Positions 3,866 through 62,017 of a DNA stretch of 64,000 nt are shown here, in pieces. The notes below the pieces were generated by a model. The model was not told the DNA's origin and searched no databases. It saw only the letters and a list, made by a program, of their open reading frames with translations. Source of the stretch: Lantana camara (lineage: Eukaryota; Streptophyta; Magnoliopsida; Lamiales; Verbenaceae). Every line of letters begins with the position of its first letter. Positions within the stretch are counted from its first letter, which is position 1. The position numbers and the translations under genes were made by a program. The stretch spans positions 49,858,501 through 49,922,500 of the forward strand of contig CM074860.1 in assembly GCA_037501455.1 (NCBI GenBank), written 5' to 3'.

Positions 3866-5986
3866 AACTCCCTTCCCCAAACCTCCCGAGGTTGGGTGAG
3901 ACTCTCAAATGGAGAATGTTGATGGAAGAGCTCGCGACCCCACGGCCGACCCGAGATTACCATACCACTCTCCGTGGCCCAAAACTTATCACAAAAATCA
4001 CACTTAGCAAGGCTTATCTTTCAAAGCCACATATCTCGCTCACACACGCACACACACACACTCACACTTAACCAAACTTTTCCAAAACAAAAGCAAAATA
4101 GTTTATATACGTATACAAAGCGTTTTCAACATCTTATAACAAACGGGACAAGCCCACAATATATATATCACACACGTATCTATCATATAGTATACATAAT
4201 TCATATGCGAGGCTTCAAACCATATAAGGGTTGTAGGTCAGATAACTAAAAGGAACAAAACCACACCTTAACACGGGGTAGCTGAGACAAAAGAGTAAAC
4301 CGGGCACTCAAGGGGCAACCTCGTCGTCCACGGGAAGATCCTTTGAACAAAACAAACAACAAGGGGTACTCTTAGACTTAACATGAACCACATTGACGCT
4401 CGGTAAATGCATATGAATGCGTTTGATGCGTATGAGATGCCATAAGCGTAACAAAGTAATAATGAGAGCAAAACTTGCACGTTTCTAAACAAATGAATTC
4501 ACAACATGGAAAAGAACAGCAAAACATATAGCACAACACAACCCCAACACATAAGATACAAGTAAACATGGTAAGGGACCAAGAAAGGGGTGGGGAAACG
4601 AAAGGAAAGGAAAGCGAAACAGGAGAACGAAGTTCGGAGCGAAAAATAGGCCTGCTCCACATCTATCGCGTGGATTTTTTTCAAAAGGATTATCCACGGA
4701 CGTTGATATGAAGACAAAAAGTCCCCAAATTCGGCCACACAAATCCACGGGCGTGGATTTATCAAAGCACAAAATCCACGGCCGTGGGTTTGGTCCGGAT
4801 GCCAAATTTTCGAAATTTCAAGCCCCAAACGCTGCCAAAACTAAACCAAACCAACAAGGGACTAAGGCAACACATAATAGCAGGTATAGGAAGTAATAAA
4901 CCAAGCAATCCAAGTCATATAATGGCTCAAAGATGCAATAATTCAAGCAAAAAGGGTGAAAGGGGCAAAATCATCCAAAAACTCAAAAATCAACAATGGT
5001 GGAAGCAAGGATTCAACTCTAATACATAAACAAAGTTCTAATAACTCAAGAAGGATGTCTTAGGCATACCTATCATCCATTAAACCTAAGAAATTCAAGA
5101 GGAAACAAGCTAAAATCCATCAAAGCCCATAAACCCTTACTATTCACCTTATGTGCTAACATTCATGCAAATCAAGGCTATAGCTCAAGAGATTACACTT
5201 AAAAGAACCACATAACCATATAGGACTCAAAAATATGCTCGAATTTGATAAGAAATGGAGGAGCTAAGAGTGAAAAATCTTCAAATTTGGAATAGTGTCA
5301 CCTTCTTCTCTTGTTTCTTCTTTAGAGCTGAAGTTGGGGAACTTTTCTCTCTTATTTTTGGTATGGGCACGAAATGGGGGGTGTGGGAGTGGGTATAGCT
5401 GAGTTAGTGGTCATAAAGTCAAGGTTAGAGCTCAATTAGGGATAAAAAGGGGCCCACATGAAGACTTGTCAACAAAAGAGGCTATTCTTGTCACAAGGGC
5501 TCGTTCCAGTCGGTTTTCGGAGGTCTAAAAGGGCTTAGAAAAGTGTGAGGTTAGGCTCCAAAGCTTAAAAATCCCGTCAAAAATCCAACACCTCTTCCGG
5601 AATTCGAATCCGAATTCCTTAGCTCAAGATACGCCGCCCGGAACCCGAGGTGCGCTAAATACCATTTAACCGTCCTCTAGGTTCCGAAAAAATTCGAACA
5701 AGCGAACCCAAAACCATATAACGAGCATGCTAACACGTACATAATTCACATAGTTCACGTATATCCAGAATTCACAAAAATCTGAATCAAATTCGAGCAC
5801 GTTGAGAGAAAAATTCAAGCAAAAGAACATAAACGTTCAAGGTAATCAAAAAGGAACTAAAGAAGTAAATTCCAAATTAACAAATAAGCATTAAAAGTAA
5901 TTCAAACGGTATACTTAAATAAATAAATTGGACACGTAACACCCCGTAAAGGCATACCTGTAGATCCGGATGATCGGGATCTTACA
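3866..5986 (-). repeat. 3' LTR of element B (truncated by C)
   Basis: It matches 9396-11531 over its whole length with many substitutions and indels. It ends GATCTTACA at 5986, followed by a polypurine tract. Compared with the 5' LTR it has lost the putative splice donor (a 7-bp deletion near 5238) and the paired acceptor (CTCTGAAC to CTTTGAAC near 4352). Confidence 0.88.
4691..4791. repeat. Palindrome cluster in the 3' LTR of element B
   Basis: There are three copies of an ATCCACGGNCGTGGAT-type palindrome: a decayed one at about 4691, AAATCCACGGGCGTGGATTT at 4741-4760 and AAATCCACGGCCGTGGGTTT at 4772-4791. The position matches the cluster at 10216-10315 in the 5' LTR. Confidence 0.85.
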
Positions 5987-9865: not shown

Positions 9866-10765
9866 CTGAACAAAACAAACAACAAGGGGTACTCTTAGAC
9901 TCAACATGAACCACATTGACGCTCGGTAAATGAATATGAATGCGTTTGATGCGTATGAGATGCCATAAGCGTAACAAACTAACAACGAGAGCAAAACTTG
10001 CACGTTTCTAAACAAATGAATTCACAACGTGGAAAAGAACAACAAAACACATAGAACAACACAACCCCAACACATAAGATACAAGTAAACAAGGTAAGGG
10101 ACCAAGAAAGGGGTGGGGAAACAAAAGGAAAGCAAAACGAAACAAGAGAACGAAGTTCGGAGCGAAAAATGGGCCTGCTCCTCATCCATGACATTGGATT
10201 TTTTCCAAACGGATTATCCACGGCCATGGATATGAAGACATAAAGTCCCCAAATTCAGCCACCCAAATCCACGGGTGTGGATTTATCAAAGCACAAAATC
10301 CACGGCCGTGGGTTTGGTCCGGATGCCAAATTTTCGAAATTTCAAGCCCCAAACTCCACCAAAACTCAACCAAACCAACAAGGGAATAAGGAAACACATA
10401 TTAGCAGGTATATGAAGTAATAAACCAAGCAATCCAAGTCATATAATGGCCCAAAGATGCAACAATTCAAGCAAAGGGGTGAAAGGGGCAAAATCATCCA
10501 AAAACTCAAAAATCAACAATAGTGGAAGCAAGGATTCAACTCTAATACATAAACCAAGTTCTAATAACTCAAGAAGGATGTATTAGGCATACCTATCATG
10601 CATTAAACCTAAGCAATTCAAGAGGAAACAAGCTAAAATCCATCAAAGCCCTTAAACCCTTACTATTCACCTTATGTGCTAACACTCATGGAAATCAAGG
10701 CTATAGCTCAAGAGATTACACTTAAAAGAACCACATAACCATGGAGGAATAAAAAATATGCTTAC
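9866..10765 (-). other. Putative LTR intron 1, element B 5' LTR
   Basis: The donor GTAAGC begins at 10765 and the acceptor TTTTGTTCAG ends at 9866, about 900 nt apart. It is positionally equivalent to introns proposed in A, E, I, K, M and Q. Splicing is inferred from conserved sites only. Confidence 0.5.
10216..10315. repeat. Palindrome cluster in the 5' LTR of element B
   Basis: ATCCACGGCCATGGAT lies at 10216-10231, AAATCCACGGGTGTGGATTT at 10265-10284 and AAATCCACGGCCGTGGGTTT at 10296-10315. It is equivalent to 4691-4791. Confidence 0.88.
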
Positions 10766-14456: not shown

Positions 14457-15412
14457 GTAAGTTTATGAATTTGTTCTCAAGCTCCTCCTCTTTCATTTGA
14501 TACCTTATTTGCTGAAATCCATGAAGAAATGAGTATGATATTGAATTCTTGGTGAATAGTAATTATTAGGACCAATTTGATGATTTTACATGATCTCTTG
14601 TGATTTCTTTGGAATTTATGCATCCTATTTGATCCTAAGACATCCTTGAGTACTTGTATGAACTATTTTACATGGTGGTTAAGGAATTTTTGAGATACCA
14701 TTCGAGTTGAAGCTTTTTGGCATGAAGAAGATGATGAACTTTGCCTTGCACTTACTTCATGTATATCTTCAAGTTTAGCCTAGATTATTGCATGAAATGA
14801 ATGAATTCTTGCTACTTTAACTTACCATTATGTGTTCATTTTATGTTAGTATGATTTACCTTGAGTTTTGGACTGAATTTTCAAGTTTTGCCCTGCTGCC
14901 GCGAGGGGTTGCGGCCGCGATCGTGCCAAGTTCATTCTTGGTCGCGGCTACAACCCATTTTCCCCCTTTTTTCGACTTCAGGTCATGCCCGTAACCATCC
15001 TGAGTTGTTTTTAGGTCATGGCCGATACCTGTTTTTGCCTGACTTTCGATTTTTAGGTCGCGATCGCGACCATTTCTTGAAGAGAAAGAGTAGCGGCCGC
15101 GACCACCCCCTGCGTGCATGTATGTTATTTTCCTCCTTTCGTTTGTGGTTTGCTTGCTCTTCATGGTTTGTTTATGACTCGTATGTTATGTTAACATGTC
15201 ATATTATGTGTTAAGATTTATGTTATGAATTTATAACTCATTTTATGTCCTCGTTAATGAATTATGATCTCATATGCTAATATATGTCTTTATATGACCT
15301 AAGTATGGTTTCACTTCATTTCATTCGCATCATTTACATTCATACGCATTTTCCAAGCGTCTATTTGGTACATTTTGAGTCTAAGAGTATCTTTTGTTAT
15401 TTTTTTGTTCAG
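14457..15412 (+). other. Putative LTR intron 1, element E
   Basis: This 956-nt stretch runs from GTAAGT to a T-rich TTTTTTGTTCAG. It is the clearest donor/acceptor pair among the gypsy LTRs. The region upstream (about 14276-14456) would be exon 1. No transcript evidence is available. Confidence 0.55.
14895..15106. repeat. Palindrome cluster of element E LTR
   Basis: GC-rich self-complementary words include GCGGCCGC (14911-14918), the perfect 16-mer GGTCGCGATCGCGACC (15056-15071) and GCGGCCGCGACC near 15093-15104. Decayed relatives (GGTCGCGGC, GGTCATGGCC) lie between. All are inside putative intron 1. Confidence 0.85.
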
Positions 15413-20399: not shown

Positions 20400-21437
20400 T
20401 TGTCATTTTAATTTAAACTATTCGTGCAAGTGTACACTGTAAAGACATGCGTAGCACATTAGGATCGTACCCACAGGGAAGGCAAATCAATCACTACTTT
20501 TATACTTAAATCTAATCTAAAGACCGAACAATTATCAAGTTGGTTGTTTAACTACTAAAACGAAATTAAACAAATAACTAGAAGAAAACGCAATTAACTG
20601 ATTTAGGCACGGATTAAAATCAATAAACTAATTAGGCCGGGGAGTAATAACTATGTATTCATGATTCAATATAATACTCGTTTGACAAGTGCAATTCTAC
20701 AACCTAGTCACTTAGATTCGTATTATCCTTTTTCAAAGTATAAATGAGTGTTCAATTAATTTCAACGTTGTTGTCACAATCATCAATAATCAATTAAACC
20801 AATATGATCAAGACTAGTGCAAATCAAACTCTAGCGGCTCGACATGGTATAAGAATTACAAGTCGTATGGATTATAAGTTAAATCTCTTTAAATCCTAAA
20901 TCCACTAGTTACAAAAACATCACAATTACCATCAATCTTTCGACACTTAGGTAATCCTAGATTATGCTAAGGTTGGCCAGACCGTTGCAATTAAAGTAAA
21001 CTAAGTTTTCACAACTAAGAATTAGCACAAGTCATTCAAGCATTATATCAAACACTTAGCATGCATTCATCATCACTCCTCTAGCCCTAGGGATTTAGCT
21101 ACTCATAATTAACTGATAACTCATGAAAATCAGAGGAATTGCATTAATTGAAATCAAAGTCTTCATGTCAAAATAAATTCTCAAAAACAAACTCATAAAC
21201 ATTCATAAACTAAGAAAAACGAATATAAACGTCTAAACCAATTAAAGCTAAAATTGGAGGAATTAGTTTGATGATTAAATCAATAAATAAAATTGAAAAA
21301 ACTGAATTTTTTTGCAGAATTTGATCATTTCATCTTCTCGAAATTCTCTGAAAAACTCTTCCCGAAGCTCCGTATCTCTCTCTCGATGCTAGGTTACGAA
21401 CTGAAGAAAAAACTCTCAAAATAATCCATCTCGCACA

Positions 21438-21445
21438 TTTATATA
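21438..21445 (-). promoter_or_regulatory. TATA box in H LTR
   Basis: The minus strand reads CTATATAAATG within a T/C-rich leader, about 500 bp from the U3 edge of the LTR. It is the most TATA-like sequence in this LTR. Confidence 0.5.
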
Positions 21446-21474
21446 GTTGCTCCAAACTCTCTCTCGCCGCCATT

Positions 21475-21790
21475 GGTAACGGGCAAACACGATTTTAGTT
21501 GGTAACGGGCGTCAATGAAGATTGTGCACGTATTGGTAACGGCTAAAATCATGTTTGCGCTTTTATTAGTGGTAACAGGCGTTACCACTTTTACACTGCC
21601 CAGGGGTAACGGGCTTTACCGCTTCTTCGCCAAAATTCTCCACTATTGCCTCTGGTAACGGGTGTTACCAGATTTCTTCTTCCTGGGAATAATGAGCGTT
21701 ACTCTCTCTCTCTTTCGCCAAAGACTACCCCCTGCCTCCGTTAACTGGGGTTAACGATTTAGTTCTTCCAAGGAGTAACGAGGTCACTCC
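21475..21790. repeat. GGTAACGGGYGTTACC palindrome cluster in H U3
   Basis: About eight copies are present, perfect to degenerate, including CTGGTAACGGGTGTTACCAG (21652-21671) and GGAGTAACGAGGTCACTCC (21772-21790). Unlike the clusters of the other families they lie upstream of the TATA box. Related words recur in the spacer at 25459-25730. Confidence 0.85.
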
Positions 21791-21949
21791 TTTTTCCTCC
21801 AAAAATGCGTGCATTCGCCTAGTTTCGCCGTTTCTTAACTCCAACTTCCTAAACACCTAAATGGAGCAAAATAAACATATAAACACATCAAACAACACAA
21901 AAATATACTCTAATTAACGCTCAAATTCATGCGAATTTTACGCTCAACA

Positions 21950-28535: not shown

Positions 28536-29603
28536 CTGTACACAAGACGAAACAATGCATTCGTGAGACTCAAGACTCTAAATGAACCATATATGACAAA
28601 CGACAATGCAATGATTGTCTTATGATATGCATAAGAGAGTAAGTCATGGTATGGAGATGCATTAAGGCACATAATCAATCATTTCATTCATTCTTGGACA
28701 TTTCATAGTCACTCGAGTTCATATCTCCCATGTATAGTATCAAATCCATCCATTAATTCCGAACAAAGATCATAACATATATTTCAACAAGTATACAATT
28801 CATATGAGCAATAAAAGAAAAAATAAATACGCAAGTAGGGTTCCTATTGATAGTAAAGATCCATATATGCACGTACTTGTAGCATTGACGACATATTAAA
28901 TCATAACTCGTAAAATATTCCATGAAAATCATGAAAATTATAATAAATAAGATAACACATTATAGAACATGTTAATATGGCATAGAAGTTATAAAAGAGG
29001 TGGAGGAAGATCGAACAAGCAACGAAAAACGGAACCAGACTCATGAGGGTAGGCTGGACAGAATCCACCCCCATGGATTTTTCCAACGGGAAAAATCTAC
29101 CCCCAGGATCTGTTCCAGAAGCCCACTGACCCAAATCCACCCCCGTGGATTTGGCTCAATAGCTAAAAAAACACAACAACATGGCAAAACGAAAGGGAAA
29201 GGAAAAGAAGCATATTACCAACTTATAACTCAATAAAAAGCATATAAATATACAAAGATTCATGTCCTAATTCATACAAAAACCGAAGCTAAATCATGAG
29301 AGTGGAAGAGATGCTCACAAAGGTTCATATTCTTCAAGTTTCATGAGAATCCATTAATGGTAACTTGCAAATAACTCATTTATCATGCAATATAAGTTCA
29401 AGGAAACTCAAGTGGAAGTCTTAGAATCATATACCATGCTTCATACTAAAAGAAACCACAAGAACTCATGCAAGATTCATTAAAGTTTCACAAACCCTTA
29501 CTATTCATCATCTTCTCCAATACTTGATCAAATCTTGGTGAAATCATGTAATATAGGACTTAAAAGAACCACAAAGAGATACACAACATAAAAATGGGAT
29601 TAC
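28536..29603 (-). other. Putative LTR intron 1, element I
   Basis: This is 1068 nt from GTAATC (29603) to GTGTACAG (28536). It contains the palindrome cluster 29062-29152. Confidence 0.45.
29062..29152. repeat. Palindrome cluster of element I LTR
   Basis: AATCCACCCCCATGGATT lies at 29062-29079 and AAATCCACCCCCGTGGATTT at 29133-29152, with a decayed copy between. The arms are self-complementary around a C-rich core. Confidence 0.85.
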
Positions 29604-31990: not shown

Positions 31991-32872
31991 CTGTGCAAGA
32001 AAGACAATTGTCCGTGAGACACGACTAAAAATGTACCAAATAGGACGAACGGCGAAAATGCAATGATCATGATATGAATATGTAAAAGACAAGATTATGT
32101 TCATGTGCACTATTAATAAAATTAAATCATATGTTCAAGTCATTCACTCATTCATTCAAGTCACAATTAGGGAATAAACAATTAAATACAGTCAATTAAA
32201 CCAAATAACAACTAATATATAACCAACATATATGTATATATAACACCTACACGTACAGCCATGCATGCAAAACAATATATGCATGAAACAGAATGTGACA
32301 CGCCCGTGTCACCAAAATACACTAAGCCGTGACACCCCCGTGTCACGGTACAGCGGACAACATGCATGCGAACAGAAGGTGACACGCCCGTGTCACCAAT
32401 GCAAAGCAACCCGTAACACCCCCCGTGTCACGGTACAGAAAAGTCCAACCAACCAGCATGCACCCCCGTGTCACCCAGAAGAGAAGAAAAGTGACACGCC
32501 CGTGTCACTGTGCGTAACAGGAAAAAAAACAGAGCAATAGCAGCAACAGCAACGAACCAACAACAACAACCCACAAATGAATTCAAACTAAGATGAAATG
32601 CATATATATCATGCAATACACACACTATCCTACATATAAATCAATATCAATTCATATAAACATCCATTTCCATGTTAGATCATCAAGAATCATCAAATGA
32701 AACCCATTCCATCAACCATGCTCCAAGTGCAATGTCAACAAGTTGAATACATATAACTTAAGCTTAAAGTTCCTAAACATATTTCCAACAACCAATACAC
32801 AATTTAACAAACAAATACTAAAGCCCTATCTAACCTACATATGCAAGAAAATCATCAAAGTTCCATAATTAC
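31991..32872 (-). other. Putative LTR intron 1, element K
   Basis: This is 882 nt from GTAATT to TTGCACAG and includes the palindrome cluster 32295-32508. Confidence 0.45.
32295..32508. repeat. Palindrome cluster of element K LTR
   Basis: Near-perfect copies are GTGACACGCCCGTGTCAC (32295-32312, 32491-32508), GTGACACCCCCGTGTCAC (32329-32346) and GGTGACACGCCCGTGTCACC (32379-32398). Two variants lie near 32413 and 32461. Confidence 0.9.
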
Positions 32873-35978: not shown

Positions 35979-36585
35979 TGTAATGCCCCGGTTCCGGATG
36001 AAGAGGTAAGCACGCCACGTGTGTGTTTTGAGCCTAGGATTTTATTTTCGTTCTTTAATTTTATAATATATTCTTACGTGGCATTCATATTTTTATAAAA
36101 TTCATGAAATATTGTTTATATAAATTATTTGAATTCATATCATTGGATATATTATTCACGACAGGGAAAAATATTTATTGCATGAAATAATTACCGAGAG
36201 TATTTTAAATTACCAAATTGTCCCTAGTTGAATATTTCTTTAAAATTCTAGGGACTTAATTGCATAGTCTTTTAGGGACCGAATTGATCATATTTTAAAA
36301 CCATGCCTATTCAATTGCATAACTTCATGAGTTGAGGGATTAGTTGGCAATTGGTATATTTCACAAAAATCAAGAGGAATGAATCACGTAACATTTTTAT
36401 CTCCAAGCTTCCTAGTTCAATTTCATACAAATCTCCAACATATTCATCCCTCTCACTCTCGGTTTGTTCAAGAAAGAAAAGGGAAGAGAATTTTATCATT
36501 TACTTCAAGAATTTCCAAGAAAGATTTCAAGAAATCAAGTTTGAGCATCATCTTCATCCATTTCTTCACTTCTTGAACTTCAAAG

Positions 36586-37412
36586 GTGATAGTTGCATGA
36601 TTTCATGATTCTTGATCATATTTGGTTGGCTAGGGTTTGTGAATTATGTACCTTGAGGATTATTTGCTGAACAAAGAGTGATTAGGTGAATATATGTTGA
36701 ATTATAGCATGATTTATTCATGAAATCATTGAAAATTTGAGCTTTGTTGATCAAGAGGAGCATGGGCACGAAACTTGAAATTCTTGATAACATCTCATGC
36801 TTTGAGTGTTTAAATGTTATATTATCATCTTGTGAATATAGATGCATCATATTACCAGAAATAATAGCATTTGGGGATCACAAATTGGATTTGGTTTGCT
36901 TTGTTGATCATTGCCGAGAGCCTCCCCTGTTTTTGCTCTGTTCTGTAAATTGCAGAAACAGGGAACGGCCGTTCCCATCCTCAAGGCATTTTGGGAACAG
37001 CCGTTCCTCTTTTTTTAAACAAAAAGGAGGCGGCCGAGCATGGGAACTGCCGTTCCCCTTTTGGCCTTGGAGCTGGAAGGGCCGTTCCCAGCTAGGCGCA
37101 TTTTAAAACCAAAAACGTTGGCGTGATTTTGGGGATTCATGGGAACGACCGTTCCCATTTTTCAAAGGGATCCGGAACGGCCGTTCCCATGTCAGTTGCA
37201 GAACAAAACATTCTGCATAAAATTACGAAAATAGCCCCTCGATCCGACGACTTCTTTGACCCCGAATTGCTATAATATGTGCTAATATGTAGTGAAACAA
37301 CATTTTATCATGCCACATTGCATTTTCATCGTCATCTCGATACATTTCCTCCATTCGTCATATTTGGTCCATTTTAGGTCTTGTCTCATGTATACACGTC
37401 TTGTTTGCACAG
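36586..37412 (+). other. Putative LTR intron 1, element M
   Basis: This is 827 nt from GTGATA to TTTGCACAG and contains the palindromes 36961-37189. The donor is weaker than in E or A. Confidence 0.45.
36961..37189. repeat. Palindrome cluster of element M LTR
   Basis: There are six copies of GGGAACGGCCGTTCCC with single-base core changes: 36961-36976 (perfect), 36993, 37042, about 37076, 37141 (GACC core) and about 37174. Confidence 0.9.
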
Positions 37413-38638
37413 GTCACGAGGGCGTGGACGAGGAGCAGGCTCAGTAGGGTATATCCTTGTCATATTTTGTAAGAAAGGTGAGGTTTTGTTGAAGTAAATC
37501 GAACCCTATAACCCTTATATGCCACTTTCGGCCAAAACATATTAAAATTATAAACGTTTTCAAAGTTATAAACCTTTTAAGCAAGAAAGCAATGATTGTC
37601 ATGATTTTCAAGCAAGTTTGGCGAGTACATGATTGCACGTGGGCCCGAGGGTAATTCTTGAGCCAACCGGGAAAGCAAGGGCTGACGGGTAACTCTTAAA
37701 TTATCCTCACATTGTTGGGATCACCCCCGAATCCACTAGGAGATTAGTGGTGGAAGGAGTTCCGTGTCTAGAGAGTCATGTCCTCTACACACACCATGTC
37801 GTGGAGAGTCGAGCCTTGCAAACTCGCTATCACCCAGAGGAAGAAGGAGACTGGGGATTAATCTGGCATGTCGGGTTATCCTCGGGTTATTGCATGATTT
37901 CAAGTATGAAACTGTCTATGTGAGCACTAAATGGGATTGTATGATCATGTATTGAATTGATAAAGCAAGAACGTATTGTCACGTTTGGTGTAAAGGTTGG
38001 AGAATCGCCCCTACTCGTCGGGGTCACATGTTCATGAAATGTTCAAGTTAAAATGTTAAAGTGATTGGTTGTAATCTCGGGCAAAGATTAAGTTTCTTGA
38101 ATTATATATCCATTTCATTTCCAAAGTCTTCACCCGAGGCTACAACTTGCATGTGATGTGTGATACATATATATTTATTGCCCCTCACTCAGTCTTCGGT
38201 AGACTGATACTTCACTTTTCAAGTACTTGAGCGCTTGGTCGTGCTAGGCGGGTGTCCGGTCGAGTTTTGCATTCTCACGTAACTAGTACCATACCTTCAT
38301 GTATAACACTTTTAGTATCTCATGTTATGGTCGTTATTAGTACTTTTGTATACCTGAATATGTATATTATTAAGAGATGATAATGTATTGATAGTTAAGT
38401 TGGTATCTATACGTATCTATTCGGCAAATATGGTACCTATATGTATGAATGATTTTATTGCTTCCGCTTTCATTATCATGTTTGCTCTAGTTTTGTTTGC
38501 TCTGCTTTCATTATCATTTTTATTGTCACCCGTTCGCTATAGTTTTGATTTATGTATGGACTTTCCATTTCATACGTGGATCGAGGCTATAGTGCGGGGG
38601 ATGTAGTGCCCTGGGGGTTAGGGTGCTACATCTACAGG

Positions 38639-38650
38639 TGGTATCAGAGC
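38639..38650 (+). other. Primer-binding site of element M
   Basis: TGGTATCAGAGC lies 8 nt after the LTR end at 38630, tRNA-Met type. Confidence 0.9.
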
Positions 38651-38786: not shown

Positions 38787-40747
38787 TGTTGGAATTCATC
38801 AACCCTAACGCAACGGAAATTAAAAATTTTAGGGATTCTAAAAACAAGTTTTATCGGAATTCCAATTAAGATCAGTCTTTGATTCAAGATTTACGATTTA
38901 AACAAAAGAAGAATTAAATACCTCTTTCGCTTCCGATTGATGACGATGACAAGAAGGTTTTCCAAAACCTACCCGCTTCTCTTCTATCCGATCTTCTTCC
39001 AAGAATCCCACGCGGAATTCCTCTAAGGTAGTCCACGACCCGTAATTGAACAACTATTCAATTAGCACACTAGAACACTAATTAGATATTGATTATCTAA
39101 TAGCATTCTCAATACTGTATTGAGAAAAGAGAGAGAAGAGAGAGACTTGGAGAGAAAGCAGAAAAGAAGAAAAACAACGATATTTGATTTCTCTCCCTTA
39201 TCTTTCTTAAATACTCAGCCCTAGGTCAAAACCCCTATGGGCCAGTCTTGGGCTTATATTTAATTACTACTTAATTAAATTAAAAACCCAATATTCATTT
39301 TAATTAGTAGACTTAATTTAATTACATTAATTAAATCACAAGTCCAATATCTAATTAAATTTGTGGACTTTAAAAATTAATTACTCCTAATTAAATTTCA
39401 AGTCCAATTAATTTAAATACACTTATTTAAATTAATGTTAACTCTTTAACATCTATTCTCAATAGCTTAACAATTAAGCATAAATTAATTAATACAATTA
39501 TTAATTAATTACTCTCTCATAAATTAAACTCTTTTATTTTATCAATCAATATCTATTGATCTTTAGATAATTTTGTTGTTCAATTCGAGTCATTGTGTGA
39601 CCCCTTAGGTTCACCAATAAATAGTAGTAGGCCCACATTCTTAACGTGGTATTTTAGATAACAATTTATCTTGTTGATTCAATTAAACCCTTTCAATTAA
39701 TCATTGTTTAATTAAAACTCCTTTTAATTAATCAGTACCTACAGATCATGATCGATGTCTAGTGACAAGCTCATGACCACCCATCCAACAGGTGAAGTTT
39801 ATACTGTGAACCTTTCAGTCTCATGGATAGCGTGAGATAAGATCCTTCTATCGTCCAATCCCAGATTAGGACCTAGGGCATGGGAATGATAGAACCCTAT
39901 TAGTCCTAATGCTATGAATTAATTCTAATAGCAATTCCATTGATCTAACACTCTAGGAAACCCATTTCCTAATTTAGATCTCACTACCTTGCGCAAGGAT
40001 TTAAGTGGAATGTGCTACAATAGAACTCATGGGTGATTCACTCGTTCTTCTAGACGAGCGATAGATTCTATGTTGGACTCTCATATGCCCCCATACATGA
40101 TTCGAACAATGCCAACATACAACCGTAACGAGATTCATGGAACCCATGAATCTCTAGGCGCATATCAAACATTACCCTTGTCATGCACAGAGCATCAATG
40201 GAGCCTCAAGTCTAAGGACCGTTTAGACACTACCATAACCAGGGAACCAACCTCATCATTAAGGCATAAAAGCCTTACCCCATTGAGGTGTCCCCATCGG
40301 GATCCTCAGTGTACTTGTTCCCTAAGAAGCACCCCCATTCGCATGTGAATGTCTCTACATTCAATACTTATGAAACAAAGTAACCTTTCTAAAAGGCACA
40401 TCGTATGAGCAAGTCTCAAACGAGTCAAGTCAACATCCCCGTGCTTATTAGACTCTTCGACTTGGAATTGGTTTAGGTCACGCCATAGAGACTTGTTTCA
40501 TAACCTCCATCCCTATGCGAGGTCAAGTCCCGTAGCTTAATGTGACCTTGGGGTTTCATCCATACACAAACCGTTATAATATGCAATTAATAAACTTGAA
40601 TGAGATATGATGAATTGGCCACATAGAATTAAACGACTATGAAACGTTACATTTATTATTCCATTAATGTCACAAATTGCTGCTAATAAGAGTAGTTTAC
40701 AAAAAGAGGCCTAAACTATTTGGCTCTTCTAGGGCACTACTCTAACA
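38787..40747 (-). repeat. 3' LTR of element N (1961 bp)
   Basis: The ends are TGTTGGAATTCATC and ACTACTCTAACA, followed on the right by the purine tract. It is nearly identical to 59626-61587. Confidence 0.93.
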
Positions 40748-40764
40748 ATCTCCCACTTGCCCTC
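40748..40764 (-). other. Polypurine tract of element N
   Basis: The minus strand reads GAGGGCAAGTGGGAGAT adjacent to the LTR at 40747, typical of copia elements. The pol stop codon lies within about 20 bp. Confidence 0.8.
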
Positions 40765-48527: not shown

Positions 48528-50741
48528 TGTAACACCCCTTACATGTGGAGGTGTCACACCCCCGCACTATAGGTCAATCCACGTACGAAATGGGCGATCT
48601 GTACATGAACCAACCTATAGCGAACGGGTGACAATGCAAAACACGACCGGCTAGGCGGGATAACTTACACATGTAACAATATAAAGCGGAAGCATAAGAG
48701 CATTATATCATCATAGCAATACATTATCATCTTCCAAATTACATTCACATATATGTACTTAGAACTATTAACATGATAATCTGAACGGTTAATACATGAG
48801 AAGAAAAGCTATGCTAGACTCAGTTGGACTGAAAGACACGACCCGACTCCCGCCTGGCACGCCACGAACAAAACCTGAAAGGTGGAGGCGTCAGTCTGTG
48901 AAGACCGAGTGAGGGGCATAACATATATGAACACAATTAACATGCAAGTTATAATCTCGGGTAAGGTTTTGTAATTAAAATAATATAGATGCAAGAATAA
49001 CATAAAACTCGCCCGAGATTACAACTATCAGGTTTAACACGATAATCACGTTTATTATAGCAATCAGTGGCCCTGGCGAGGGGCGTGCACGATCTCCAAC
49101 CAACCTCGACAGTGAACAAGGGTTGCACTTTCATTTAATTAAGTTATCACGCAAGTCATTAAAGTGCACACGATCAATAACACGAAATCCACCCTTCACC
49201 ATTGGTGGTGGGTTTGCAAGGCCCGAACCACCCACGATAACACGGTGCACGTCGGGAGCATGACTCCCACGTACGGGACTCCTTCCTCAACCAAACCTCC
49301 TGGTGGATTCAGGGGGCATCCCCACGGTGTGAGAGAGGTGTTATGAGTTACCCGTCAGCCCTATGCCTTCCAGGTTGGCTCAAACACTCACCCTCGGGCC
49401 CATAAACACGATACACGATACACGGTACACGATAGTTCGCCAAACACGATCACGGTAACACAATGACACGATTCATGGCTTGATTATAACACGATTTGTA
49501 ACATGATACACGAGTAGGTATTAAATCCTTTGTTGTTGGAAAACGATTATAAAGATATACGCATGTGTAGTTTGGCCGAATCCATATAAAGGTTATAGGG
49601 TTCTAGATAATTAATAACTAAACCTCACCTTTACCGACAAACGTAAGTGGAGACACGGCCTACGGCCCCTGCTCCACGTCACGAGAAAAGGATCTGTGCA
49701 AACACGACGTGTAGACGTGAGACATGACTCTAAAATGGACCAAATATGACGAACGGCGGAAATGCATCGAGATGACATGCAATATACAATGTGGCATGAA
49801 AACCTGTTGTTTCAGTACATATTAGATCATATAATAGCAAATCGGGGTCAAAGAAGTCGTCGGATCGAGGGGCTAAAATTGTAATTTTATGCAGAATATT
49901 TTGTTCTGCATGTCAGGTGGGAACGGCCGTTCCGGGTTCCCTTTGTAAATGGGAACGGTCGTTCCCATAACCCCAAAGACGCGCCAACGATTTTTAATTC
50001 GAAAAGTGCGCTTTGTCTGGGAACTGCCCTTCCGGCCTCAAGGCCAAAATGGGAACGGCCGTTCCCAGGCTCGGCCGCCTAGTTTCATTTGAAAAGATGG
50101 GAACGCCCGTTCCCACAATGCCTTGAGGCTGGGAACGGTCGTTCCCAGTTCTGCAACTGAAGAAAAATAGAGCAGAACAGGGGAAGAGTTACGGGAATGA
50201 TCAACAAAGCAACCAAAATCCCAATTTCAATCAACAAAGCTATGATTTCCAAATTTCCTTGAACTATTTCTTGAAATCTTGATGATGGAATGAAAAGTCA
50301 CTCCTTTCCCTTTTCTTAAATATACCGAGAGTGAGAGAGATGGATATGTTGGAGAAACTTTGATAGAATTGATCAAGGAAGCTTGAAGAAGCTTATACCG
50401 TTATATTCCATTCTTGATTTTTGTAAAATATGCTAATTGCCAATTAATCCTCTAAGAGTTCAAGTTATGCAATTAAGGATATAAGGTTTTGAAATATGGT
50501 CAATTAGGTCCTTGAAACCCATGCAATTTAGTCCCCAAGTTTAAAGAAATATCTATCTAGGGACAATTTGGTAATTAACTCATACCCGGTAAATATTTTA
50601 CGAAATGGATATTTTCAAGTCATGAAAGAAATTCTCAATTTGTTATAAATTCATAAAATTTTCATGAAAGTATTGTAAAATATAATTTATAAAATTATTT
50701 TAAAACATAAGATATTAATAAATGGAAATCGGGGCGTTACA
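48528..50741 (-). repeat. 3' LTR of element P (2214 bp)
   Basis: The ends are TGTAACACCCCTTACATG and GGGGCGTTACA. Minus-strand acceptor TTTGCACAG is at 49694, second donor AAAG|GTGAGG at 49628 and second acceptor CACCTTTCAG at 48875; exon 2 is 65 nt. The intron 1 donor is not evident (GAAATT replaces GT at the aligned place). Confidence 0.92.
49919..50146. repeat. Palindrome cluster in the 3' LTR of element P
   Basis: GGGAACGGCCGTTCCC-type copies lie at 49919, 49951-49966, about 50018, 50051-50066 (perfect), 50099-50114 (CGCCCG core) and 50131-50146. Confidence 0.9.
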
Positions 50742-53873: not shown

Positions 53874-55139
53874 CTGAACAGAAGACAATGTAGTGTACTT
53901 TGTGAGACTCAAGACTCCAAATGAACCATATAAGACGCACGGCAATGCATTAACGTGGTATGAGATGCATAAGAAGTAATACAATGTCATGGAGATATAT
54001 AATCAAGCACTCAACCCTTGTACATTCAATACATGAAGGTTTCACGTTCAATCATATCGTATCATTCATAATTCAAATCAAAATGATCCAACAATTCCAT
54101 ACAATAATCATAAGATAAATATCAACATGTTTACAATTCACATGAATCATTTAGAGGTGAAAGGAATCCATTGAACACATAAGGGATGCGTTAGTTATAA
54201 GAGGAATCGCATTATCACGTAATTCATTCAAGTACATTCGTTCATAACTTTCATAATCCATACCAAATTAATCCAAGAAATTCAATTAACGAGCATAACA
54301 CGTAATATAACATGTATACACATCATACAAGTCATAAAAGAGGAGATATATAAGCGATTAGGGTTCACATTGGAAGCAATCATCCATGCATGCACATATT
54401 AAAAGCAATGAAGATATTTGAATCATAACTCATAAAATATTCCACGAAAAATAATAAAAGTTCATAACACACAACATAATACATGTTAGCATAGCATAGA
54501 AGTCATAAAAGAGGTGGAGGAAGATCAAACAAACGAAGAAAAATGGAATCGGAGTAACAAAAACAGGCTGGACAAAATCCACCCCCATGGATTTTTCCAA
54601 AGGGAAAAATCCACCCCCATGGATTTGGTCCAGAAAACTGCCATAAATCCACCCCCGTGGATTTTTCCAAAGGGAAAAATCCACGCTCGCGGATTTAGGT
54701 CAGTGGCGAAAAACACACAACAAACAGGGCAAAACTCATGCTAAACCATATAAACATCAAATTAACACACATAGGTAAGTTAGGATAGAAAGTATTTATG
54801 CATTTCAATCCATTAAAACATCCAAAGATGCAACAATTCAAGCAAGGAATGAAATTGGAACAAACTCATGCTATCTCTTCAAATTCCATAAATGGTAAGG
54901 CCATGAATTCTAACCTAGAAACCAAAGAAAGTTCATACATATCACAAATAACATCTTAGGAGCAATATAAATGCATCATAACAAAAGAATCCACAAGGAG
55001 ACATGCTAGAATTCATCAATTTCCCCCAAACCCTCACTATTCATCATACATGCCATGTCTAACCCAAAGCTTGGAGAAATCATGCAAACCTTAACTTAAA
55101 ATGACTATAAGAAGATGTACATCACAAATATGGGCTTAC
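53874..55139 (-). other. Putative LTR intron 1, element Q
   Basis: This is 1266 nt from GTAAGC to TCTGTTCAG and contains the palindromes 54575-54697. Confidence 0.48.
54575..54697. repeat. Palindrome cluster of solo LTR Q
   Basis: AAATCCACCCCCATGGATTT lies at 54575-54594 and 54608-54627, and the CCCGTGG form at 54645-54664. AAATCCACGCTCGCGGATTT is at 54678-54697. Spacing is 33-37 bp. Confidence 0.9.
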
Positions 55140-55857
55140 CTTTCAATTTGGAGTAGAAATGGTGGGGGTAGGAGCTCAATACCCCAAGGTTTGAATAGTG
55201 TCATCTTCTTCCTTCTTCTTTCTCCCTATTTCTTCTTTCTCTCTCCTTTTGGCTGAGTTTGGGGATAAATGGGAGGGGTTGGTTCGGTGGGGGGGCCAGA
55301 TATGGGGGAGAGAGAGAGTGTGCAAGTGGTTATAGGTCAAGGGTTAGGGTCTAGGTTCGTTAGGTTAGGTCCGTGAACGTGAAATAGCTATTATTTGTCA
55401 TTTTTGGCGCAAGGGGCTTGTTTCGGTTAAAATTTGGCAACCCAAATGATCTTAGAAAAATGTGAGGCTTATCCCATTGTCTCTGATTCATCGATCCGGA
55501 TCCAATGGAGGTGACGGAACTCGATTCCGAGTTCCCGAGCTCAAGATATGCCGCCCGGAACACAAGGTGCGCTAAATGCTCTTTAGACCCCTTTTTGGTT
55601 CCGATCACACGAACGAATCCAAACCACACACATACGGGAATAAAATCATGCGACGAGCATATAAACATAATCATAAGTCACATAGTTCACTCATGCCAAG
55701 TTTTCACGACATCAAACATAAACACACATGCTCAAACGTCTCAAGAATTCACGATCAATTAATAAAATCAATAATGAAGCATATATCGTTAATTAAATTG
55801 CGCACATTGGTAAACGAATACGTCATGCTCAAACCTCTGAAAAACTGGGGCGTTACA

Positions 55858-57928
55858 TGTAACAATATAAAGCGGAAGCATACGAGCATTATATCATCAT
55901 AGCAATACATTATCATCTTCCAAATTACATTCACATATATGTACTTAGAACTATTAACATGATAATCTGAACGGTTAATACATGAGAAGAAAAGCTATGC
56001 TAGACTCAGTTGGACTGAAAGACACGACCCGACTCCCGCCTAGCACGCCACGAACAAAACCTGAAAGGTGGAGGCGTCAGTCTGTGAAGACCGAGTGAGG
56101 GGCATAACATATATGAACACAATTAACATGCAAGTTATAATCTCGGGTAAGGTTTTGTAATTAAAATAATATAGATGCAAGAATAACATAAAACTCGCCC
56201 GAGATTACAACTATCAGGTTTAACACGATAATCACGTTTATTATAGCAATCAGTGGCCCTGGCGAGGGGCGTGCACGATCTCCAACCAACCTCGACAGTG
56301 AACAAGGGTTGCACTTTCATTTAATTAAGTTATCACGCAAGTCATTAAAGTGCACACGATCAATAACACGAAATCCACCCTTCACCATTGGTGGTGGGTT
56401 TGCAAGGCCCGAACCACCCACGATAACACGGTGCATGTCGGGAGCATGACTCCCACGTACGGGACTCCTTCCTCAACCAAACCTCCTGGTGGATTCAGGG
56501 GGCATCCCCACGGTGTGAGAGAGGTGTTATGAGTTACCCGTCAGCCCTATGCCTTCCAGGTTGGCTCAAACACTCACCCTCGGGCCCATAAACACGATAC
56601 ACGATATACGGTACACGATAGTTCGCCAAACACGATCACGGTAACACAATGACACGATTCATGGCTTGATTATAACACGATTTGTAACATGATACACGAG
56701 TAGGTATTAAATCCCTTGTTGTTGGAAAACGATTATAAAGATATACGCATGTGTAGTTTGGCCGAAATCCATATAAAGGTTATAGGGTTCTAGATAATTA
56801 ATAACTAAACCTCACCTTTACCGACAAACGCAAGTCGAGACACGGCCTACGGCCCCTGCTCCACGTCACGAGAAAAGGATCTGTGCAAACACGACGTGTA
56901 CACGTGAGACATGACTCTAAAATGGACCAAATATGACGAACGGCGGAAATGCATCGAGATGACATGCAATATACAATGTGGCATGAAAACCTGTTGTTTC
57001 AGTACATATTAGATCATATAATAGCAAATCGGGGTCAAAGAAGTCGTCGGATCGAGGGGCTAAAATTATAATTTTATGCAGAATATTTTGTTCTGCATGT
57101 CAGGTGGGAACGGCCATTCCAGGTTCCCTTTGTAAATGGGAACGGTCGTTCCCATAACCCCAAAGACGCGCGAACGATTTTTAATTCGAAAAGTGCGCTT
57201 TGTCTGGGAACTGCCCTTCCGGCCTCAAGGCCAAAATGAGAACGGCCGTTCCTAGGCTCGGCCGCCTAGTTTCATTTGAAAAGGTGGGAACGCCCGTTCC
57301 CACAATGCCTTGAGGCTGGGAACGGTCGTTCCCAGTTCTGCAACTGAAGAAAAACAGAGCAGAACAGGGGAAGAGTTACGGGAATGATCAACAAAGCAAC
57401 CAAAATCCCAATTTCAATCAAGAAAGCTATGATTTCCAAATTTCCTTGAACTATTTCTTGAAATCTTGATGATGGAATGAAAAGTCACTCCTTTCCCTTT
57501 TCTTCAATATACCGAGAGTGAGAGAGATGGATATGTTGGAGAAACTTTGATAGAATTGATCAAGGAAGCTTAAAGAAGCTTATACCGTTATATTCCATTC
57601 TTGATTTTTGTGAAATATGCTAATTCCCAATTAATCCTCTAAGAGTTCAAGTTATGCAATTAAGGATATAAGGTTTTGAAATATGGTCAATTAGGTCCTT
57701 GAAACCCATGCAATTTAGTCCCCAAGTTTAAAGAAATATCTATCTAGGGACAATTTGGTAATTAACTCATACCCGGTAAATATTTTACGAAATGGATATT
57801 TTCAAGTCATGAAAGAAATTCTCAATTTGTTATAAATTCATAAAATTTTCATGAAAGTATTGTAAAATATAATTTATGAAATTATTTTAAAACATAAGAT
57901 ATTAATAAATGGAAATCGGGGCGTTACA
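55858..57928 (-). repeat. 5' LTR of element P, part 2
   Basis: After the TSD of Q the LTR resumes and runs to GGGGCGTTACA at 57928. It matches 48677-50741 with about 20 substitutions by eye. Confidence 0.93.
57106..57333. repeat. Palindrome cluster in the 5' LTR of element P
   Basis: The same six sites as 49919-50146, with changes at three of them (for example GGCCATTCC at 57112), so some copies have lost symmetry since insertion. Confidence 0.9.
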
Positions 57929-59625: not shown

Positions 59626-61587
59626 TGTTGGAATTCATCAACCGTAACGCAGCGGAAATTAAAAATTTTAGGGATTATAAAAACAAGTTTTATCGGAATT
59701 CCAATTAAGATCAGTCTTTGATTCAAGATTTACGATTTAAACAAAAGAAGAATCAAATACCTCTTTCGCTTCCGATTGATGACGATGACAAGAAGGTTTT
59801 CCAAAACCTTCCCGCTTCTCTTCTATCCGATCTTCTTCCAAGAATCCCACGCGGAATTCCTCTAAGGTAGTCCACGACCCGTAATTGAACAACTATTCAA
59901 TTAGCACACTAGAACACTAATTAGATATTGATTATCTAATAGCATTCTCAATACTGTATTGAGAAAAGAGAGAGAAGAGAGAGACTTGGAGAGAAAGCAG
60001 AAAAGAAGAAAAACAACGATATTTGATTTCTCTCCCTTATCTTTCTTAAATACTCAGCCCTAGGTCAAAACCCCTATGGGCCAGTCTTGAGCTTATATTT
60101 AATTACTACTTAATTAAATTAAAAACCCAATATTCATTTTAATTAGTGGACTTAATTTAATTACATTAATTAAATCACAAGTCTAATATCTAATTAAATT
60201 TGTGGACTTTAAAAATTAATTACTCCTAATTAAATTTCAAGTCCAATTAATTTAAATACACTTATTTAAATTAGTGTTAACTCTTTAACATCTATTCTCA
60301 ATAGCTTAACAATTAAGCATAAATTAATTAATACAATTATTAATTAATTACTCTCTCATAAATTAAACTCTTTTAATTTATCAATCAATCTCTATTGATC
60401 TTTAGATAATTTTGTTGTTCAATTCGAGTCATTGTGTGACCCCTTAGGTTCACCAATGAATAGTAGTAGGCCCACATTCTTAACGTGGTATTTTAGATAA
60501 CAATTTATCTTGTTGATTCAATTAAACCCTTTCAATTAATCATTGTTTAATTAAAACTCCTTTTAATTAATCAGTACCTACAGATCATGATCGATGTCTA
60601 GTGACAAGCTCATGACCACCCATCCAATAGGTGAAGTTTATGCTGTGAACCTTTCAGTCTCATGGATACCGTGAGATAAGATCCTTCTATCGTCCAATCC
60701 CCGATTAGGACCTAGGGCATGGGAATGAGAGAACCCTATTAGTCCTAATGCTATGAATTAATTCTAATAGCAATTCCATTTGATCTAACACTCTAGGAAA
60801 CCCATTTCCTAATTTAGATCTCACTACCTTGCGCAAGGATTTAAGTGGAATGTGCTACAATAGAACTCATGGGTGATTCACTCGTTCTTCTAGACGAGCG
60901 ATAGATTCTATGTTGGACTCTCATATGCCCCCATACATGATTCGAACAATGCCAACATACAACCGTAACGAGATTCATGGAACCCATGAATCTCTAGGCG
61001 CATATCAAACATTACCCTTGTCATACACAGAGCATCAATGGAGCCTCAAGTCTAAGGACCATTTAGACACTACCATAACCAGGGAACCAACCTCATCATT
61101 AAGGCATAAAAGCCTTACCCCATTGAGGTGTCCCTATCGGCATCCTCAGTGTACTTGTTCCCTAAGAAGCACCCCCATATGCATGTGAATGTCTCTACAT
61201 TCAATACTTATGAAACAAAGTAACCTTTCTAAAAGGCACATCGTATGAGCAAGTCTCAAACGAGTCAAGTCAACATCCCCGTGCTTATTAGACTCTTCGA
61301 CTTGGAGTTGGTTTAGGTCACGCCATAGAGACTTGTTTCATAACCTCCATCCATATGCGAGGTCAAGTCCCGTAGCTTAATGTGACCTTGGGGTTTCATC
61401 CATACACAAACAGTTATAATATGCAATTAATAAACTTGAATGAGATATGATGAATTGGCCACATAGAATTAAACGACTATGAAACGTTACATTTATTATT
61501 TCATTAATGTCACAAATTGCTGCTAATAAAAGTAGTTTACAAAAAGAGGCCTAAACTATTTGGCTCTTCTAGGGCACTACTCTAACA
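59626..61587 (-). repeat. 5' LTR of element N (1962 bp)
   Basis: Nearly identical to 38787-40747. A TATTTAAG word on the minus strand (60045-60052) is a possible TATA box. Its right edge is followed by the TSD ATTTG. Confidence 0.93.
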
Positions 61588-62017
61588 ATTTGTGTAGCGC
61601 CCCCTAACACAACAACTCCCGCACCGTACTACCCTCGAGCGAATGTGAGACCTAGAACTCGAGAAATACTACGGCGAACGGTATAGACAGTACTTAAGTA
61701 GAGCGTAGGGTAAAATGCAGCGGAAAATGGAAGAATTTAAAATTTGCAACAAGCAACATGATAACACACAAAATAGCGCATGATATTGTAAGGGGGTAAT
61801 ATAATAGTGTAGTGTACGGAGTTAATGTGAGAGCAATTTATTAGCAATATATACATGATCAGGATTAAATGCTCTTAATCTAAACCTGATCTAATAAATA
61901 TGACACCTATAGCTTCAAGATACCTCTAGGTGTCGTTATCCTCGCTCCCTGAAACCATGTGTTTGAAACAGGCGAGGAATTAGTCAAAGTGACTAAGTGA
62001 AGGAAGATTAGATTTAG

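Follow-up and report, generated by a model that had tools for sequence, protein, structure and literature searches.

Many chromovirus-type LTRs of the Lantana camara genome carry a cassette of roughly 90-290 bp that holds up to three doublets of 16-20 bp inverted repeats. The unit is the doublet, in which two dyads, each with arms of 6-8 bp and a centre of 4 bp, are set 31-34 bp apart. This regular pairing is the main regularity overlooked in the original prediction, which had described palindrome clusters in the first LTR intron as candidate dimerisation or packaging signals. As judged from LTR alignments, the block holding the cassette has been exchanged between element backbones. We favour, with a probability of roughly 40%, the reading that the cassette acts as DNA, as an exchangeable regulatory array of the enhancer or operator type.

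The window analysed here is a whole stretch of 64,000 nucleotides, in which LTR orientation was taken from PBS positions and LTR alignments. The cassette of its M LTR lies within the first intron, as follows.

36042 to 38638, plus strand, M LTR; the 5' end is approximate, from alignment to the P LTR, and the 3' end is set by a tRNA-Met-type PBS at 38639
36586 to 37412, plus strand, M intron 1, between the exon 1 end CAAAG at 36585 and the exon 2 start GTCACGAGG at 37413; placed by exact exon-exon joins elsewhere in the genome and by donor- and acceptor-side matches
36961 to 37008, plus strand, M doublet 1, dyads at 36961-36976 and 36993-37008
37042 to 37089, plus strand, M doublet 2, dyads at 37042-37057 and 37074-37089
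37141 to 37188, plus strand, M doublet 3, dyads at 37141-37156 and 37173-37188
37413 to 37477, plus strand, M exon 2, followed by the donor of intron 2 (AAAG/GTGAGG); placed by sequence and by the distance from acceptor to AGGTG[AGT]GG across loci

The six dyads of M, which start at 36961, 36993, 37042, 37074, 37141 and 37173, have the arms GGGAAC/GTTCCC or one- or two-base variants of them, and their centres are, in order, GGCC, AGCC, TGCC, GGCC, GACC and GGCC. The 16-mer GGGAACGGCCGTTCCC has 15,128 exact occurrences in the 1.27-Gb assembly, as compared with 0 for its reversed control. Further cassettes occur elsewhere in the window.

2262 to 2476, minus strand, A cassette, arms GGACAC, TGACAC and CAACAC, doublet distance 32 bp
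4661 to 4789, minus strand, B cassette in the 3' LTR copy, arms ATCCAC
10184 to 10313, minus strand, B cassette in the 5' LTR copy, arms ATCCAC
14907 to 15104, plus strand, E cassette, arms GGTCGC, pairs at 33 bp
21475 to 21790, minus strand (orientation from similarity to Q), X cassette, arms GGTAAC, pairs at 34 bp
29063 to 29150, minus strand, I cassette, arms ATCCAC and ATCCAT, doublet distance 32 bp
32296 to 32507, minus strand, K cassette, arms TGACAC, pairs at 34 bp
49919 to 50146, minus strand, P cassette in the first LTR copy, arms GGGAAC
54577 to 54694, minus strand, Q cassette, arms ATCCAC, pairs at 32 bp
57106 to 57333, minus strand, P cassette in the second LTR copy, arms GGGAAC

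Doublet distance is 31-32 bp in B and 32 bp in M and P. Clusters had been predicted in A, B, E, I/Q, K and M/P; all are present, and X carries a further one that the prediction did not contain. The 16-mer given for B is absent from the window, where the actual B sites are ATCCACGGCCGTGGGT and its relatives. The supposed palindromes of I/Q and K are indeed inverted repeats, but their centre is non-palindromic. M and P do have common arms, as had been proposed. P (50160-50300) has no counterpart of the stretch of ~318 nt that bears donor 1 in M, so P would use another donor or leave this intron unspliced.

We sampled LTRs independently of the motif by searching the genome with the conserved LTR end and PBS, which gave 7,886 and 7,989 matches (about 15,900 places; control 0). 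From 100 listed places we took 40 with differing LTR ends, all within the first 24 Mb of one contig, and used the stretch 2350 to 950 bases upstream of each. Dyads were called like-armed at four or fewer mismatches in 12 arm positions, and 50 shuffle rounds were performed. Three or more like-armed dyads were present in 31 of the 40 stretches (shuffles 2.9), at least one like-armed pair at 31-34 bp in 30 (shuffle mean 0.16), and two or three such pairs in 23 (shuffles 0.0). The 30 include L034, which has a pair with differing arms 31 bp apart. Palindromes are therefore in excess at this position in this one genome, as the prediction required, but not every LTR has such a cluster, as 10 of the 40 PBS-anchored stretches have no pair at 31-34 bp.

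Combining the 40 stretches with the window and random loci, 43 of 53 sense stretches had a cluster of at least three dyads, of which L055 and L066 were dropped as spurious, leaving 41 loci with 204 dyads in 15 cassette groups. Of the 204, a small number at the edges of clusters, with centres such as AAAA, resemble chance matches. Under the like-arm rule most cassettes have three to eight dyads, usually four to eight. Among the 53, no cluster was called in L032, L034, L048, L049, L057, L059, L061, L062, L065 and wI; wI has two family dyads, and L032 and L059 have one each. Because members of one family cannot be treated as independent loci, one representative per group was used to rerun the tests of covariation and spacing. 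Neighbouring dyads were spaced at 31-34 bp in 29 of 58 gaps among the 15 representatives and in 88 of 163 across all loci. In the window and 20 random 10-kb stretches, 48 same-arm dyad pairs lay within 400 bp of each other, as opposed to 0 in each of five Markov shuffles; 15 of the 48 belong to an unrelated 29-bp array in L010 and one comes from L023.

Exchange of the cassette is apparent both from a tree and from pairwise alignments. A tree of 36 downstream LTR flanks bearing nine arm-type labels (5 of the 41 loci were left out as having no anchor, and three long branches are uncertain) has 16 arm-type changes, as compared with a minimum of 7 and a shuffled mean of 18.8, with a value as low in 2 of 200 shuffles. 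Arm type is thus weakly tied to backbone. We then compared cassettes with upstream and downstream flanks in 16 LTR pairs. L044 (arms GGGAAC) and L054 (ATCCAC) have unmatched cassettes and flanks at 87.7% identity over 284 nt upstream and 74.3% over 284 nt downstream. The same pattern was found in L046/L067 (flanks 76% and 82%), L028/L033 (74% and 87%) and L038/L058 (76% and 92%). The unmatched block of these four pairs extends past the cassette by at most ~220 nt, on one side, and in L046/L067 it is almost confined to the cassette. The cassette of L054 is common to Q (84.8%, 125 nt), L052 (81.1%, 95 nt) and L037 (77.5%, 138 nt), and with none of these three do the adjoining sequences match, as compared over roughly 400 nt in each direction (for L037, 206 nt upstream). 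Three control pairs, each with a common arm type (L029/L039, M/L029 and K/L038), aligned throughout. L042/L028 resembled the four swapped pairs with weaker flanks; L047/wB2, wE/L037, L031/L054 and L041/L040 matched in one flank or in short pieces only; and L033/L046, both with GGTCGC arms, had 51 nt of cassette and a 71% downstream piece in common.

Six gag stretches were compared, together with the Q and B pieces from the window. The gag regions of L038 and L058, which have unrelated cassettes, are identical at 94.0% of 884 nt, and those of L046 and L067 at 84.4% of 877 nt. L054 and Q, which have the same cassette, match at 67.1% of 386 nt, and Q is 79.8% identical to L067 and 79.1% to L046, both with other cassettes. 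The gag pieces of L044 and B had no match to any other gag stretch compared. In the pairs tested, gag tracks the LTR backbone and not the cassette. These comparisons disfavour the idea of Gag as an arm-specific reader.

Some spacers are kept where arms differ. The spacer CTTAGTGYATTTT is common to K (TGACAC), L031 (CCAAAC) and L067 (GGGAAC), and ATTTTGAACTAAAA to A (GGACAC) and L042 (TGTCCC type). A spacer like TTTTTCAAAGGGAA occurs in M/P and, in the opposite sense, in Q (ATCCAC) and L041. The best spacer match scored 14 and the opposite-sense matches of M/P with Q and L041 scored 11.5-12, relative to maxima of 8.5-13 in 20 shuffles, 19 of them at or below 11; a score of about 10 or less is thus no better than chance. 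Six comparisons chosen from among the highest spacer scores had 6-14 of 24 arm positions identical, as compared with 11-15 of 15-16 spacer positions. Furthermore, doublet 1 of P is roughly the reverse complement of its doublet 2. Spacers matching in both senses partly show what would be orientation independence of the cassette. The strand count of cassette matches (36 plus vs 22 minus) was set aside as evidence because an arm that is palindromic will match on either strand, and because, of 14 minus matches listed, 13 link groups with the same arm type.

Across six arm pairs in 204 dyads, 1051 of 1224 cells are Watson-Crick, 39 G-T, 36 A-C and 98 other. Pairs 7 and 8 are independent of detection, which used the six-pair arm. 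When partners were shuffled within each element (15 representatives, 73 dyads), Watson-Crick pairing exceeded expectation at pair 6 (53 vs 45.5, p 0.006), pair 7 (40 vs 31.1, p 0.002) and pair 8 (35 vs 24.7, p 0.002). There was no excess at pair 5 (57 vs 55.8) or, in the same representatives, at pairs 9 to 11. Pooling pairs 6-8 gave 128 Watson-Crick pairs vs 101.0 expected (p 0.0005), with 11 G-T vs 16.8 and 23 A-C vs 25.1. Self-complementarity thus extends to about 8 bp and includes sequence that differs between dyads of one element. Moreover, 31 of the 44 arm pairs that differ in the six comparisons of spacer-sharing doublets are Watson-Crick in both. Together with the excess at pairs 6-8, this bears out the proposal that arms diverge between families yet stay self-complementary, and arm covariation is found above within-element shuffles.

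The pairing is of a type without the wobble tolerance expected of a sense-strand RNA stem, although private decay of old copies weakens this test both ways. G-T is not preferred over A-C, and in pairs 6-8 G-T is low and A-C is not, which indicates strand symmetry and favours an array acting as DNA. The predicted palindromes are real as self-complementary sequences, but several of the dyads have mismatches. Many of these probably arose by decay private to single old copies, and some are found again from copy to copy. In the M/P group, C-C and G-G mismatches recur in particular dyads, for example CGGAAG...GTTCCC in the second dyad of doublet 2, and since they recur across copies, conserved half-sites fit them better than conserved pairing. 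Dyad centres vary while arms stay; many are GGCC, GACC, GGGC or GGGG, which places CGG or CCG on at least one side, and GATC, GACT, GCTC and others also occur. An excess of T-G over C-A at the innermost pair (15 vs 2) is probably no RNA signal, as a GGGG centre makes CpG on one side only. Symmetry is usually dyad by dyad; one doublet of L030 instead shows complementarity over the doublet as a unit, with 15 of 16 positions of TGACACccccGTGTCT pairing with AGACACgggcGTGTCA.

The cluster had been placed between a donor and an acceptor, and both the layout of splice motifs and exact exon-exon joins in the genome agree with this. Downstream of the cassette, a pyrimidine-rich CAG lies ~60-90 nt before AGGTG[AGT]GG in 29 of 41 loci, or 29 of the 32 in which AGGTG[AGT]GG is present, and in ten loci a good donor is located 289-599 bp away on the upstream side, both being raw counts. 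A 32-base pattern of the M exon 1-exon 2 junction, at up to three mismatches, has 7 matches in the genome (control 0), which are places rather than counted splicing events. Unspliced matches number at least 147 on the donor side and at least 3,230 on the acceptor side, the patterns being not equally broad. Three of the seven junction places were read; all align to M on both sides, lack intron 1 exactly, keep the intron 2 donor and have neither GGGAAC nor GTTCCC. Of these three, two lie on the same strand at a distance of 5.2 kb, agree at 99.6% over 825 nt, and are interpreted as the LTR pair of a single element. A distance of 6.6 kb separates two others of the seven places.

By the testimony of these genomic copies, intron 1 is spliced in the M group. 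At the level of DNA, the joined junctions also support, for this group, the predicted confinement of the cluster to unspliced RNA. Since two of these copies read as the LTR pair of one element, reverse transcription and integration do not strictly require the cassette. RNA without the cassette is evidently reverse transcribed and integrated, though rarely; this rarity may reflect poor packaging or dead-end copies, and an unspliced partner RNA may help cassette-less RNA in trans. The counts suggest that most successful copies derive from unspliced RNA. According to a 2025 review, introns are generally absent from plant LTR elements, Ogre and EVADE being exceptions (PMC12786077), which makes the leader intron itself noteworthy. 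Genomic copies here show its splicing in an abundant plant LTR element.

No TATA box was found at a fixed place after the cluster. In X alone (21400-21900), TATATAAA lies close downstream on the presumed sense strand, and the array there could lie upstream of a promoter. An ordinary U3 enhancer is rejected, because there is no TATA at a fixed place after the cluster. The splice layout puts the cluster downstream of exon 1.

Strand symmetry, free exchange, first-intron position, variable centres and spacer matches in both senses point to a cassette that acts as DNA. In this reading a dimeric DNA-binding protein of the host would bind the two inverted half-sites of a dyad, and two such dimers would sit about three helical turns apart on each doublet. 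The cassette would be swapped between backbones by recombination, probably through template switching of reverse transcriptase, and a swap would change the binding specificity of an element in one step rather than by a dozen separate mutations. Effects on transcription, and selection for novelty through a new expression niche or escape from silencing, would follow in this model. In favour of a DNA array are the recurrent C-C and G-G mismatches, which fit half-site conservation, the 31-34 bp spacing across 15 groups, and a gag that does not follow arm type. Intron-less copies also favour it in that they exist, though they are few (7 joins as compared with the unspliced matches above). The cassette has a CpG o/e of 0.99 (0.78 outside dyads) and a GC content of 53.8%, relative to 0.45 and 36.0% in the upstream flank.

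Several observations weigh against a DNA array. The downstream flank (GC 35.8%) has a CpG o/e of 0.88, nearly equal to that of the cassette. With nine arm-type labels, one host protein reading all of them is unlikely. Simple protein binding would not predict covariation at the seventh and eighth pairs, which suggests that pairing as such, or a palindrome-perfecting copying process, matters. In addition, the 34 bp spacing of some families misses three helical turns by about a quarter turn. Should the array set expression or silencing, an element could gain a new regulatory identity in one step by swapping its cassette. A natural experiment on the evolution of retrotransposon control regions is offered by related LTRs that differ in cassette, unmatched LTRs that have the same one, and copies that lost it by splicing.

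Retroviral dimerisation and packaging signals are structured motifs of the leader. Under an RNA reading, the dyads would be hairpins in unspliced leader RNA through which genomic RNAs of the same family dimerise and are packaged, with arm divergence keeping families apart. The cassette resembles the retroviral signals (PMC5035971) in being made of structured or palindromic leader motifs that mark unspliced RNA. Its removal by splicing, the covarying arms and the large majority of unspliced copies are all consistent with such a role, and a module that pairs with itself could do without a matching protein and would still function once swapped. BARE keeps separate RNA pools for translation and packaging (PMC3735527). 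Predicted folding of the nine window clusters is strong (sense z -3.2 to -10.3, 60 shuffles each), but the antisense folds nearly as well (z -1.2 to -9.9). Unlike in the retroviral case, a few or more intron-less copies have replicated here, two of them read as the LTR pair of one element, no wobble tolerance was seen, and gag is unlinked to arm type in the pairs tested, with 94% identity despite unrelated cassettes. Among the centres of the K and Q groups, most (GGGG, GGGC, CGGG) are mutually non-complementary and cannot kiss, and kissing-loop dimerisation as a general mechanism is therefore rejected for most K and Q sites. Integrated cassette-less copies, a gag that follows the backbone, the lack of favour for G-T (39 vs 36 A-C) and non-kissing K and Q centres together disfavour the originally proposed dimerisation or packaging function, and we consider the RNA reading unlikely.

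A second explanation, which we hold to be improbable to a similar degree, is that the cassette is a silencing interface, with palindromes that are folded or dense in CG/CHG being recognised by the small-RNA and methylation machinery of the host. Swaps would then give temporary escape, and diversity would be driven by the host. Palindromic LTR regions of maize Sireviruses are reported as fast-evolving small-RNA hotspots (PMC5311732, PMC10760457), and VANC target motifs are partly intronic and fast-diverging (PMC5735166). The CpG-rich cassette and an arm type that is almost decoupled from backbone (16 changes in 36 rows) fit this explanation. However, it accounts for change and not for self-complementary arms, likeness within an element, or the 31-34 bp setting. 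A silencing interface may be compatible with a DNA regulatory array, both operating together.

It is likewise doubtful that the cassette is an exchangeable identity tag, in which self-complementarity and geometry alone are conserved, arm sequence is free, and swapping is wholesale. An element's own arm type would be recognised through nucleic-acid pairing or by a host repertoire of dimeric readers, and rare types would be favoured, as in other self/non-self systems. Least probable is a functionless by-product of copying, whereby strand-switching of reverse transcriptase or polymerase at hairpins perfects inverted repeats and spreads one arm to its neighbours. This would predict the Watson-Crick-only covariation and like arms within an element as templated correction, and palindromes could also promote exchange, but it does not yield 31-34 bp doublets in 15 groups, spacers kept under differing arms, or a constant region of the LTR.

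The nearest known kind to the DNA array favoured here is the repeated motif (RM) of Sirevirus (Ty1/copia) LTRs, which PMC2829016 describes as palindromic with a CGG-CCG core and element-specific arms. Both are CpG-rich clusters of palindromes with dyad symmetry in the LTR, present in several copies per element with element-specific arms (PMC2829016). According to the same source, the CGG-CCG core is found in most RMs, whereas here CGG or CCG is found on at least one side of many centres, and GATC, GACT, GCTC and others are found as well. RMs are present in at least eight copies a short way upstream of the TATA box, whereas most cassettes here have three to eight dyads and lie in an intron downstream of exon 1 (PMC2829016). 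The hosts here have Ty3/gypsy-type rather than Ty1/copia proteins, and pairing at 31-34 bp, spacers in common and swapping of the cassette between backbones set the present system apart from RMs (PMC2829016).

The target arrays of VANC in VANDAL elements are also family-specific arrays of short motifs in non-coding sequence, including introns, and diverge fast (PMC5735166, PMC10398659). Unlike here, where gag does not track the motif, the reader protein of VANDAL is encoded by the element and motifs are in one orientation; the word palindrome is absent from this VANC paper (PMC5735166). A control region that moves by recombination is described for non-coding regulatory sequences of pararetroviruses (PMC5491270), and movement of sequence between elements for recombination within an LTR family (PMC5668417). 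In those accounts, exchange homogenises partners or stays within one family, whereas here it joins different backbones and many arm types are kept (PMC5491270, PMC5668417). Searches of the open-licence literature turned up no description of such doublets in the LTR introns of chromoviruses, nor of cassette exchange. Listed matches to motif letters as text in papers were unrelated, and IMG/VR held no relatives by protein and three 16-mer matches that we took as chance. The BII boxes of Tnt1 are laid out in tandem. Like the present dyads they are LTR boxes, and they bind induced nuclear factors, but they are located in U3 of a copia element and are not paired intronic palindromes (PMC3316501).

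Profiles of reverse transcriptase, RNase H and SH3_Tf2-1 scored above cut-off beside the K and B LTRs, and Ty3_capsid did so in the Q gag. Chromo matches at the expected place were sub-threshold, at 23.6 and 20.0 bits relative to a curated cut-off of 25.1. From the long LTR and tRNA-Met-type PBS, we take the host elements to be Tekay/Del-type chromoviruses. In the window, the P LTR copies (48669-50741 and 55855-57928; 98.9% identical) enclose the Q LTR and gag, and the inner end of the second copy has no detected PBS, so this is not a simple element. Another LTR pair (38787-40749 and 59626-61589; 98.5% identical) contains a copia-type gag-integrase piece and encloses the nested P and Q material. 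Arrays of other kinds were met in the sampled stretches. At L010:3027-3220, an array of GGATCG-N4-CGATCC dyads repeats every 29 bp exactly, with 13-nt spacers that vary in sequence, and lies apart from the LTR cluster in that stretch. L016 has a tandem array and L013 has repeats, presumably CACTA-like, both unrelated to the cassettes. A viral contig at L025:4400-4650 has several repeats resembling GGGAAC/GTTCCC around one exact 16-mer and is probably also unrelated.
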